From positions 1 through 35,161 of the forward strand of contig PGXB01000038.1 in the NCBI GenBank assembly GCA_002838945.1: a stretch of 35,161 nt of DNA. The letters run 5' to 3'. The translations under genes were made by a program, and so were the position numbers. This DNA comes from a candidate division Zixibacteria bacterium HGW-Zixibacteria-1 (lineage in GTDB: Bacteria > Zixibacteria > MSB-5A5 > GN15 > PGXB01). Below, in pieces: positions 9,099 through 13,706 of the stretch; the stretch's first letter is position 1; every line of letters starts with the position of its first letter. Below the pieces are notes generated by a model. The model was not told where the DNA came from, did not search any database, and saw only the letters and a list, made by a program, of their open reading frames with translations.

Positions 9099-9164
9099 AT
9101 TTTTTTGCAGAGGCAACTGTGGACGGGCTTTCCATATATCGCCGAACAGAAAGGACAATAGACC

Positions 9165-9602
9165 ATGGAGCCAAACCGGGCTATGCAAATCATGGGGCAG
9201 GGTTACGTTTGATCGGAATCCGTGCTCCTGGCCGTGTGCCAGGAATTTGAAATAGAAAACGAGATCATTCCCCGGATCGCCGGCTGCTTTGGCGGCGGGA
9301 TCGGCAACACGGGGTCTGTCTGCGGCGCCGTCGTCGGTGCCGTGATGGCCATCGGCCTCATAAAAGAGCGGGGCACTACCATGGAGGACTGGCTGCGCCT
9401 GGCGGCGGTGGCCCAGGAGTTTCGCCGCCGTTTCGAGACCGAGATGGGGACCATCAACTGCCGCGAATTGACGGGGGCGGATTTGAGCACAGCGGAAGGG
9501 CGCGAGAAACTCATGGGCTCTGACATAGGCCAGACGGTTTGCTTCCCGGCGGTTGGCACGGCTTTCCGACTGGTAATGGACCTGCTAAGGGAAGCCTCGT
9601 AG
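9165..9602 (+). CDS. C_GCAxxG_C_C family redox protein, probable selenoprotein (UGA = Sec16)
   Basis: Reading from ATG 9165, the frame runs MEPNRAMQIMGQGYV, then TGA (9210-9212), then SESVLLAVCQEFEIENEI without a shift. In this family the first conserved Cys follows a GYN/GYx segment and precedes S/AESVLLAV, so the TGA sits exactly at that Cys. The remaining motif is present: AGCFGGGIGNTGSVCGAV, and further Cys residues (INCRELTG, TVCFP). A perfect stem-loop starts 13 bases after the TGA, as a bacterial SECIS should. An AAAGGA precedes the ATG by nine bases. The 145-residue length is normal. The family is known to include selenocysteine members and is thought to be redox active; the substrate is unknown. 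If selenocysteine is not inserted, only a 15-residue peptide results. Confidence 0.82.
9226..9244 (+). promoter_or_regulatory. Bacterial SECIS-like hairpin
   Basis: TCCTGGC (9226-9232) and GCCAGGA (9238-9244) form a perfect seven-base-pair stem with the five-base loop CGTGT. It begins 13 bases downstream of the in-frame TGA. The position and the GU-containing loop match what SelB requires in bacterial selenoprotein mRNAs. Confidence 0.75.
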
Positions 9603-9989
9603 CCACAGGGTCGTAGCGTTCGCGCCGTTGTCGGGCGACCGCTTCAAGGATGATCTCTAATGTCATGCGCCTTGACAAAAGGACGACTTCAGTATCCGAA
9701 GACAATAGCCAATGGCTCTGAGATCAAAGAAAAGTAGTTACAATATGACGTAAGTCCTTGTACCACAAAGCAAATTAGAAGCTTGAGTCATGCTTCAGTG
9801 GCAGCGCGATTGCCTTCAATAATACAAATTACGGATTAGCGGCGGGTTCGGCCGCCAACTTATACCATAACAGTCCATTTTCCCGCAAGAAATCGCTTGA
9901 TATTATCCGAAATATAGCTATTTTAGGCGAAATTATTCGGCACGAAAGTGAAGTTTCTTTGGGCGATAAAGTTATATCATGGGGCGACA
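9603..9989. other. Non-coding stretch between the selenoprotein and the fusion gene
   Basis: No credible coding frame is visible. A GC-rich hairpin (GCGGC/GCCGC) near 9840-9858 is the only clear structure and could end transcription of the selenoprotein gene. The second half is AT-rich and probably carries the promoter of the fusion gene. Confidence 0.5.
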
Positions 9990-12900
9990 ATGAATGATCG
10001 GCGAGATTACCGATATTTAATTTACCTGCTTTTCATATTTTCCGGTGTCTCCGGACTGATTTATCAGATCGTCTGGACCCGGCTGCTTGTCCTGGTGTTC
10101 GGCAATACGATGATGGCCACCAGCACGGTCCTGAGCGCCTTTATGGGCGGACTGGCCGCCGGAAGTTATGTTCTCGGCAAGTATATCGACCGGCGTCCTC
10201 GGCCGCTGCTAAAAGTATATGCCGCTCTCGAAGCAGGTATCGGTCTCTTTGCCGTGGTCTTCCCCCTCGCCCTTGATATCGCAACGCCCATGTATGCCGG
10301 ACTTTATACGGCCCTCGAGGGTAATATCGTCCTCCTGAACCTGTTTCGATTCGCGGTTTGTTTTGTCTTGATAGGCTTGCCGACCTTCCTGATGGGTGGA
10401 ACTCTGCCGGTTCTTATCAAACGCTTCACCGGATCCGATGACTCGATCGGTTACCAAACCGGCTTTCTCTACGGCCTCAACACGGTCGGCGCCGTAATCG
10501 GCACCTTTGCCTGCGGCTATTTCATGCTTCGCCTGCTGGGCATGCAGAAAACCACCTGGGTGGCGGTAGCCATCAACCTGGCTGTCGCGGTTGTTGCCTG
10601 GTATCTCGGAAGAACCGCCTCGGAATCGGCGGACAGTTCAAAAGCGGTTACCAGTCCCGCCAATGATGATTTCGAAGAGGCATCGATTTACGGCAAAGCG
10701 ACCATCCGGATGGTTTTGATAGGCATCGGTCTCTCCGGTTTTTGCGCCCTGGCTTACGAAGTATTCTGGACGCGAATGTTGAATCTCTTTCTTCACAACA
10801 ATGTTTACTCGTTCACGGCCATTCTGGCGACTTTCCTGATAGGCATCGCAACCGGCAGTTTAATATACGCCCGCTTCCTTTCGAAAATTAAGCAGCAAAT
10901 CGGCCTCTTCATCTGGCTGCAGATCGGGATAGCCGTGATTTCATATTCGACACCATACATATTCCGGATTCTTCATTCCACCCTCTTTAACAATTTCAGC
11001 GAGGCCCTGACGCTGGCCAAAACAGCCGTTATCATGATCGGACCGACGATCATGATGGGTGTTGCGGTACCGCTGGCGATTCAGATTTGCCGCCGGGGTG
11101 CCAATCGTGAAGGAACCAGCGTGGGAACGGTATATGCCGCCAATACGGTGGGCGCGATTATCGGGGCCTTTGCGGCCGGTTTCATTCTGCTGCCAACAGT
11201 GGGCCTGCATCTGGGTGTTATAATCGTCGCCGGATTGAACCTGCTGGCCGGTTTTCTGCCTCTGATGTCAGGCGCCCGCAAGAAGCTGCGTCCGGCCTGG
11301 GGAGCAGGTTACGCGGTTATAATTCTGGTGATGTTTTTATCCGCGCCGCCGGATTTGTTCAAGAGCCTGTTTCAAAACGCCCATCCCAACGCCGATATCA
11401 TGTTCTACAAAGAAGGCAAAGTCGCCAATGTCCTGGTGTATGATTTCAAAAAACTCGGCTATAAAGATTTTCATCTCAATGCGGTAAATGAGGCGTCATC
11501 GAGGTTATGGCACGTCCAGCTATTCAAGATGCTGGGATTGCTGCCGGCGCTGGTGCATGAAAATCCGACCGATGCTCTGATGGTTGCGTTCGGGGCCGGC
11601 ATGTCGGCGGGGGCCACTGCAAGGGTAGTGCAATCGCTCGATTGCGTCGATTTGAATCCGGACATCGGCGGTATCGCCGAAGCTTTCACGCGGGAAAACC
11701 TGGATGTCATCAACCAGCCCAATTTCCATAAAATCGTCAATGACGGCCGCAATGCGCTCCTTCTGAACCCTCGCAAGTATTCGCTCATCATCTCCGATGC
11801 CACCAATCCCAAGATGTTCGATTCATGGACATTATATTCACAGGAATTTTATCAGCTCGTCAAGGACCGGCTGGAACCGAACGGCGTCTTTTGTCAGTGG
11901 GCGCTGATTCCTTTGCCGGGAGACGCCATAAAAGTAATCCTGAACACTTTCCGATCCGTTTTCCCGCACATGAGTTTCTGGGTGATTCACGGCTCCACCC
12001 AGGTACTTATGCTGGGTACACCCGAGCGTCTTGAAATCGACTACAACGAACTCAGCAAAAGGCTGGAACCTCTGTACGAGGATGCCGGGCTGGCGGAATT
12101 CGGGGTGGATACGCCGGAAAAGTTCCTTAGCTTCTTCATGCTGGGTGAAGACGGGCTGGCTGAATTGCTTGACGGCTTCGACAAAATCAGCACGGATGAC
12201 ATGCCTCATGCTCAGTTCCACGTTGAACAGGACCCCGAAGGAATCAACAATTGCCTGGATTTGGTCAAATACCGGAAATCGATTCTACCGTACATGAAAC
12301 GATCCGAATCGCTTCCTGCGGCATTTGAGAGTACCATGGCGGCGTATGCCGATATTGCCGCGCGGCTGGATGTCGGATTTTTAAAAAGTGATCGACTCAT
12401 GTACGCTGAAGCGGCGGTGATATCCGATGATGCCGGCCTGAATGATGCCAATGTGGCCCACATGCTGAATCATTGCCCGGAAAAGAAAAGGTATTTCCGG
12501 GAAAGGATCGGTCTGTATCCTGATGATGTAACCGCCCGCAACTGGCTCGGCAATATCTATCTTCTGGACGGGGAGTTCGATTCTGCAAAACAGGAATTCG
12601 AGAAAACGATTGCGCTTAAACCGGATCACACATTCGCAAGAATGAACCTGGCCCTGACCAATCTGGAAACCGGCCGCCTTGATGAAGCTGTCGCCGGATT
12701 CCTCGAGGTTCGCAAACTATGCCCGACTAAAAGCATATTGAACTCGATCGAGGTGCAGCTTAAGAAAATTCGTATTCTCAGGAAATTGCAGTACCAGCCG
12801 AATTCAGTCGAATTGTTGCGGGAGCTGGGACTGGCGTACTACAGTGAGGGCGAAATTTCGAAAGCGGTGCATACTTATCGGGAAGCCGCCAAATTGAATC

Positions 12901-13706
12901 CCGGCAATGAGACAATCTTGTACGATCTCGCCCGTATATGTGAAAATCACGGCTTTATCGAAGAGGCCGCCCGTATCTATGGGCAACTGGCCGCGACGCA
13001 GTCCCAATTTTCCTTCAAGAATGATCAATACCATAATCTTCTTCAGGATACTACGCTTCTTCGTCAGTGGCGCAATAACAGGTTCGGAACCGTACCTTTG
13101 AAAATTGAAAAAGATACTGATGCCCAAACCCACCCCGCAAGCTGCGATAAGGCACTGGCGCTATGGAACGATGTCGATCCGGATGGCGCCGCCGATATGG
13201 ACAAGCTTCGAGAAGCCGCGGAACTATATGAGCAATCGACAAAGACTAAACCGGATGATCTTCATGCCTATCTCGACGCCGCCATGCTCTATGAAGCCGT
13301 GGGTGATTTTGATCATGCCGCCGACCTCTGGACGCAGGCATCACAGATCGCAACAGACCAGCCCGTTTACAGGATGCAGGCCGGCCGGTTGCAGACCCTC
13401 GCGGCCCTTAAGAGCGACAATCTGAATGATTCCGAAAAAGCGGCCTTATTGAAGAAAGTCGGCGATCTTTATCGGGGAATCAATCAGCCCGAACAGGCTC
13501 TTGAGTATTTCCATCAATCAACCGCTGCCGACTCCTCGCAGGCGGAGAGTTGGTTGAGCCTGGCCGAAACCGCCACCGAGGTGGGGCTGTACCGTGAGGC
13601 CATTTCTGCCGCCGACAAAGCTCTGACCCTGCAGCCGAGTCTCGAATCCGCCAAGCACATTAAGAGTATGCTTGATATGATCGTTAAGCGTTCGTCTATT
13701 CGTTGA
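9990..13706 (+). CDS. Fusion of transporter-like membrane domain, spermidine-synthase-like domain and TPR repeats
   Basis: The 1238-residue protein starts with two blocks of membrane helices (residues about 10-460), beginning YLLFIFSGVSGLIYQIVWTRLLVLVFG and repeating as IGLSGFCALAYEVFWTRMLNLFLHN. This is the pattern of the fused MFS/spermidine synthase family. A Rossmann methyltransferase-like domain follows (about 460-760) with FGAGMSAGAT, CVDLNPDI, NDGRNALL and LIISDATNP. The last 400 residues are TPR repeats (for example ARNWLGNIYLLDGEFDSAKQEFEKTI). In true spermidine synthases the last motif is usually DxxDP; here it is DATNP, so polyamine synthesis is doubtful. The start ATG at 9990 follows GGGGCGACA and is preferred to ATG 9948, which would add 14 residues. 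It stands alone. Confidence 0.85.
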   Translation: MNDRRDYRYLIYLLFIFSGVSGLIYQIVWTRLLVLVFGNTMMATSTVLSAFMGGLAAGSYVLGKYIDRRPRPLLKVYAALEAGIGLFAVVFPLALDIATPMYAGLYTALEGNIVLLNLFRFAVCFVLIGLPTFLMGGTLPVLIKRFTGSDDSIGYQTGFLYGLNTVGAVIGTFACGYFMLRLLGMQKTTWVAVAINLAVAVVAWYLGRTASESADSSKAVTSPANDDFEEASIYGKATIRMVLIGIGLSGFCALAYEVFWTRMLNLFLHNNVYSFTAILATFLIGIATGSLIYARFLSKIKQQIGLFIWLQIGIAVISYSTPYIFRILHSTLFNNFSEALTLAKTAVIMIGPTIMMGVAVPLAIQICRRGANREGTSVGTVYAANTVGAIIGAFAAGFILLPTVGLHLGVIIVAGLNLLAGFLPLMSGARKKLRPAWGAGYAVIILVMFLSAPPDLFKSLFQNAHPNADIMFYKEGKVANVLVYDFKKLGYKDFHLNAVNEASSRLWHVQLFKMLGLLPALVHENPTDALMVAFGAGMSAGATARVVQSLDCVDLNPDIGGIAEAFTRENLDVINQPNFHKIVNDGRNALLLNPRKYSLIISDATNPKMFDSWTLYSQEFYQLVKDRLEPNGVFCQWALIPLPGDAIKVILNTFRSVFPHMSFWVIHGSTQVLMLGTPERLEIDYNELSKRLEPLYEDAGLAEFGVDTPEKFLSFFMLGEDGLAELLDGFDKISTDDMPHAQFHVEQDPEGINNCLDLVKYRKSILPYMKRSESLPAAFESTMAAYADIAARLDVGFLKSDRLMYAEAAVISDDAGLNDANVAHMLNHCPEKKRYFRERIGLYPDDVTARNWLGNIYLLDGEFDSAKQEFEKTIALKPDHTFARMNLALTNLETGRLDEAVAGFLEVRKLCPTKSILNSIEVQLKKIRILRKLQYQPNSVELLRELGLAYYSEGEISKAVHTYREAAKLNPGNETILYDLARICENHGFIEEAARIYGQLAATQSQFSFKNDQYHNLLQDTTLLRQWRNNRFGTVPLKIEKDTDAQTHPASCDKALALWNDVDPDGAADMDKLREAAELYEQSTKTKPDDLHAYLDAAMLYEAVGDFDHAADLWTQASQIATDQPVYRMQAGRLQTLAALKSDNLNDSEKAALLKKVGDLYRGINQPEQALEYFHQSTAADSSQAESWLSLAETATEVGLYREAISAADKALTLQPSLESAKHIKSMLDMIVKRSSIR

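Follow-up and report, generated by a model that had tools for sequence, protein, structure and literature searches.

A probable selenoprotein of the C_GCAxxG_C_C family in candidate division Zixibacteria

We analysed a 35,161-nucleotide stretch of DNA (contig PGXB01000038.1; hereafter the window) from the draft genome of the candidate division Zixibacteria bacterium HGW-Zixibacteria-1 (G000; 3.8 Mb, 82 contigs). A gene of the C_GCAxxG_C_C family lies on the forward strand at 9165..9602, between ATG 9165 and the stop codon TAG 9600-9602. The sole interruption of this frame is TGA 9210-9212 (codon 16), which stands in place of the first motif cysteine and, if read as selenocysteine (Sec), would give a protein of 145 amino acids with Sec16. 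A Shine-Dalgarno-like AAAGGA (9150..9155, forward strand) is located 9 nt 5′ of the ATG, and an A/G-rich GGA block 5′ of the ATG is also kept in the orthologues. The remaining motif cysteines are encoded further along the same strand: Cys53 within a CGAVVG motif (9321..9338), Cys99 (codon 9459-9461) and Cys126 (codon 9540-9542). Thirteen bases after the TGA begins a SECIS-like hairpin (9226..9244, forward strand), in which the arms TCCTGGC (9226-9232) and GCCAGGA (9238-9244) form a 7-bp stem around the loop CGTGT (9233-9237; CGUGU in the RNA). The initial annotation had anticipated that gene callers would start near 9222 and miss the Sec, and the conventional ORF list indeed places the gene start at GTG 9222 (126 amino acids), a loss of 19 residues. 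Such a call begins past the putative Sec codon, and so loses the residue that is most likely catalytic.

With the TGA replaced by a cysteine codon, the translation matched both PF09719 (95.9 bits against a cut-off of 27, E=2.2e-27, residues 14-139) and TIGR01909 (76.3 bits against a cut-off of 47.4, E=1.9e-21), each match starting in the vicinity of the TGA and ending close to the C terminus. The likeness to two more narrowly defined families, the HUGP/GUXX-star fusion selenoprotein (NF045501) and the DVU_1555 family (NF045669), is recognizable (E about 1e-16), but the score of 59 bits is far below the curated cut-offs of 325 and 103, respectively, and membership of either was excluded. A C-GCAxxG-C-C family protein (pfam09719) was entered as a selenoprotein in a 2022 review (PMC9312934). 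A 2026 review (PMC13188914) gives two Sec-containing forms, ‘form 1' and ‘form 2', as subfamilies differing by Sec position or motif, and cites a paper on Olavius algarvensis symbionts (its ref. 60) for form 1; neither review gives a motif for the position of Sec in these forms. The NCBIfam name of TIGR01909 also includes ‘(seleno)protein'. The window gene thus adds a member to an already known selenoprotein family. We found no literature linking Zixibacteria to a C_GCAxxG_C_C protein, and the sole paper found to mention ‘selenocysteine' together with ‘Zixibacteria' is about marine deltaproteobacteria.

The genome encodes the machinery that Sec insertion would need. A search for selA, selB, selC and selD, suggested in the initial annotation, found all four in G000. 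The tRNA-Sec scored 75 bits, above the curated score, and was also called as tRNA-SeC by ARAGORN; SelB (333 bits) and SelA (483 bits) are encoded next to each other on contig C3. SelD is present in two copies on one contig, one with and the other without an in-frame TGA. The TGA of the former (locus L020, 1501-2421, corresponding to C13:33392-34312 of G000) falls within the N-terminal AEVSCAG-U-ASKLG, with a strong hairpin downstream; SelD itself belongs to the selenoprotein families that are widespread in bacteria (PMC9312934). Formate dehydrogenase, considered as a further selenoprotein of G000, yielded only matches below the cut-off, none of them with a TGA inside.

The presence of these genes also bears on the reading in which TGA encodes another amino acid genome-wide (as in Trp or Gly codes), which accounts for a TGA standing in frame but has a negligible probability, as selA-D are all present, the homologous residue is Cys and neither Trp nor Gly, and elsewhere in the window TGA serves as a normal stop codon (9 of 21 long ORFs terminate with it, and the open frames that follow are short), so that there is no general recoding.

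A scan of genome contigs revealed two close relatives, L048 and L049, in which the corresponding codon is likewise TGA, and one, L050 from Bipolaricaulota, in which it is TGC. L049 is a Zixibacteria chromosome whose gene is the same as that of genome G051, a member of the same order as G000. Among 132 genomes of the phylum, TGA at this codon was found in G051, G038, G085, G091, G092 and G093 in addition to G000; together with L048 these make up the eight TGA forms compared below. No copy of the gene was found in G001, a genome of the same genus (86% complete). The seven other TGA forms are 59-82% identical to the window protein over its full length and their frames are otherwise intact; decayed frames in other genomes, which the initial annotation had looked to as a sign against a selenoprotein, failed to appear. 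SelB was over the cut-off in all seven of the other TGA-form genomes, and was not found at that level in G132, the genome of the closest Cys homologue L050 (best 193.8 bits against a cut-off of 242). The closest relative, L048 (5001-5435; 82%), is on a contig filed under a Chloroflexi metagenome-assembled genome, which points either to horizontal transfer of the gene or to misbinning of a Zixibacteria contig.

We aligned the eight TGA forms with nine Cys forms. At the codon-16 column only TGA (8) or Cys (9) was found, every non-TGA homologue carrying Cys, and the four columns of U16, Cys53, Cys99 and Cys126 are invariant as Cys or TGA in all 17 homologues. The profile matches and the orthologues thus bear out the earlier proposal of an in-frame TGA at the redox-cysteine column with coding frame on either side. 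A smaller tree, from which the two-domain proteins described below and long-branch rows were removed, did not resolve an origin of L050 inside the TGA clade.

The 15 codons 5′ of the TGA (9165..9209, forward strand) are colinear with the Cys homologue L050 and show constraint at the protein level. In all seven comparisons of the window gene with the other TGA forms, pS exceeded pN in codons 2-15, and likewise in codons 17-100. As judged from these comparisons, the codons upstream of TGA 9210 are under purifying selection, and the excess of pS over pN across the TGA counts against a leader peptide, a pseudogene and a sequencing error alike. The first of these, a 15-codon leader peptide ended by TGA as a real stop and followed by a protein starting at GTG 9222, accords with the 126-amino-acid ORF opened by that GTG, and the window contains seven cases in which TGA separates a short frame starting with ATG from an open frame of at least about 120 codons. 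The protein made in this way would, however, miss the first motif Cys, the profile match and the orthologues continue through codon 16, and L050 is colinear across the site (METNRATELMADRYVCSESVLLATC). Together with the selection acting 5′ of the TGA, this makes a leader peptide highly improbable. A Cys codon mutated or misread as TGA would need a single base change, and the assembly is a draft (82 contigs). Yet eight genomes, each assembled separately, carry the identical TGA in otherwise intact genes whose protein identity goes down to 59%; the orthologous sequences effectively refute a pseudogene or error, which we regard as less probable still than a leader peptide.

The hairpin was compared with the constraints quoted for bacterial SECIS elements (PMC13188914): a loop of 3-9 nt, an upper stem of 4-16 bp, a G in the first two loop positions, and a loop located 16-37 nt after the UGA. 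The window hairpin agrees with all of them (5 nt, 7 bp, G as the second loop position, and 20 nt, respectively). The perfect 7-bp stem, the CGTGT loop and the 13-base spacing were all as first described, but taken alone the hairpin is not beyond chance, as 13 of 200 dinucleotide shuffles folded as well and synonymous shuffles reached its score with a frequency of 0.147. What is significant is its conservation across genomes. A hairpin is found at the same place in 8/8 TGA forms versus 0/9 Cys forms, with stems of 5-8 bp and scores of 9-12, while no Cys form scored above 6; in the four more distant TGA forms the synonymous-shuffle frequency was 0.02-0.04. The stem varies in its 3′ arm, where A to G and C to U changes keep the pairing as G-U, and one pair near the base of the stem is a G-G mismatch in two sequences. 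We found no double compensatory change in the stem; the variation is one-sided (U-A to U-G and G-C to G-U). Codon usage is restricted within the hairpin: the CTG of Leu22 and the GTG of Val24 are fixed in 8/8, while at most of the other conserved Leu and Val residues the codon varies, and conserved residues use 1.67 codon types within the hairpin (6 codons) versus 2.45 after it (47 codons). An Rfam scan of 9100-9700 gave no match.

The claim that TGA and hairpin together would be hard to explain by chance thus fails for the hairpin of the window alone and holds for the conservation of both features across genomes. With TGA conserved in 8/8 orthologues, Cys in the other homologues, and the hairpin in 8/8 versus 0/9, chance cannot explain this conservation. 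The Sec machinery, the conserved TGA, the conserved hairpin and the Sec/Cys pairing all support the view that 9165..9602 is a genuine bacterial selenoprotein gene of the C_GCAxxG_C_C family (PF09719) in Zixibacteria, to which, on these sequence comparisons, we give a probability of about 0.95. Translation would begin at ATG 9165, and the hairpin 13 nt past UGA 9210 would recruit SelB with Sec-tRNA-Sec. In this way Sec, the insertion of which at codon 16 we infer, would replace the first of the four motif cysteines (Sec16, Cys53, Cys99 and Cys126). The chemistry of the four-residue site is likewise a matter of deduction; most likely it would be a thiol/selenol redox or iron-binding centre. If so, the gene adds a well-supported selenoprotein lineage for an uncultured phylum.

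A two-domain version of the C_GCAxxG_C_C protein, of about 260-280 amino acids, is present in the same phylum. In eight genomes (G121, G012, G096, G111, G036, G123, G058 and G002) the first-Cys column of its first domain is likewise TGA, and in six others it is Cys (loci L065, L066, L073, L038, L034 and L043). The genes with the in-frame TGA are located at L070 1474-2265, L067 1363-2196, L074 1474-2265 and L047 1480-1728 on the forward strand, and at L064 1048-1884, L035 1012-1800, L044 1015-1800 and L036 555-1340 on the reverse strand; gene callers would probably start them past the TGA. The SECIS-like stems predicted by folding 3′ of each TGA were mostly strong: G121 gave -8.9 kcal/mol and the other seven -15 to -22 kcal/mol, with six of these stems opening at or beside the UGA itself. 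SelB was over the cut-off in seven of these eight genomes and was not found in G002. The five two-domain proteins that we scanned were a good match to the general TIGR01909 only, four of them over the cut-off. On the tree, the U/C label needs five changes, at least two of which are forced by well-supported branches; an exchange between Sec and Cys thus seems to have happened on more than one occasion.

We modelled the window protein with AlphaFold2. The model is confident and all-helical (mean pLDDT 93, pTM 0.89); two of the predicted helices begin with U16 and Cys99, respectively, and Cys53 directly precedes a helix. The best match by VIA-align was 1h21 (Z 14.2, rmsd 2.5, 127 residues; next best row Z 5.1), although a Z of this size can arise by chance with helical models; Foldseek against the PDB gave no significant match, 1h21 included. 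The family profile, compared with PDB sequences, also matched 1h21 best (E 0.0077 with one alignment and 0.01 with another), placing CGAVVG on CGALYG of 1h21 and Cys126 on a Cys. The entry 1h21, whose title speaks of ‘a novel iron centre', is the Desulfovibrio desulfuricans split-Soret cytochrome c. The apparent likeness covers the predicted fold over 127 residues by VIA-align and, by profile, the CGAxxG cysteine and the last motif cysteine. In contrast, split-Soret cytochrome c is larger, contains haem and an iron centre, and is about 14% identical to the window protein, the translation of which has no CXXCH haem motif.

Since 1h21 came out best both by VIA-align and by the sequence profile, a common fold with the iron-centre domain is favoured, and the window protein appears, from the model, to share the fold of that domain. 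The match suggests a redox or iron-binding site; a plain selenol/thiol redox site is as likely as one with a bound metal. It is also conceivable, though we consider it rather unlikely, that Sec16 ligates or adjoins a split-Soret-like iron centre, in which case the family, including the two-domain Sec form, would represent an unusual iron-sulfur-type selenium site. Sec/Cys switching at one column, taken with the link to the split-Soret fold, provides a testable idea for the role of the four cysteines.

A family-alignment search also gave five relatives on viral contigs, as partial matches about 35% identical; the exact SECIS pattern had no match in viral contigs. Around the window copy we found no genes common to the surroundings of the other orthologues. 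The selenoprotein gene thus appears to stand alone, and an operon function was dropped from consideration because neighbouring genes are unshared between most orthologues; with neighbours not conserved, the context gives no hint of a substrate. Downstream in the window, 9948-13706 encodes a 1252-amino-acid protein in which a spermidine-synthase-like domain and TPR repeats are joined to MFS-like membrane segments, the latter scoring under the Pfam cut-off.
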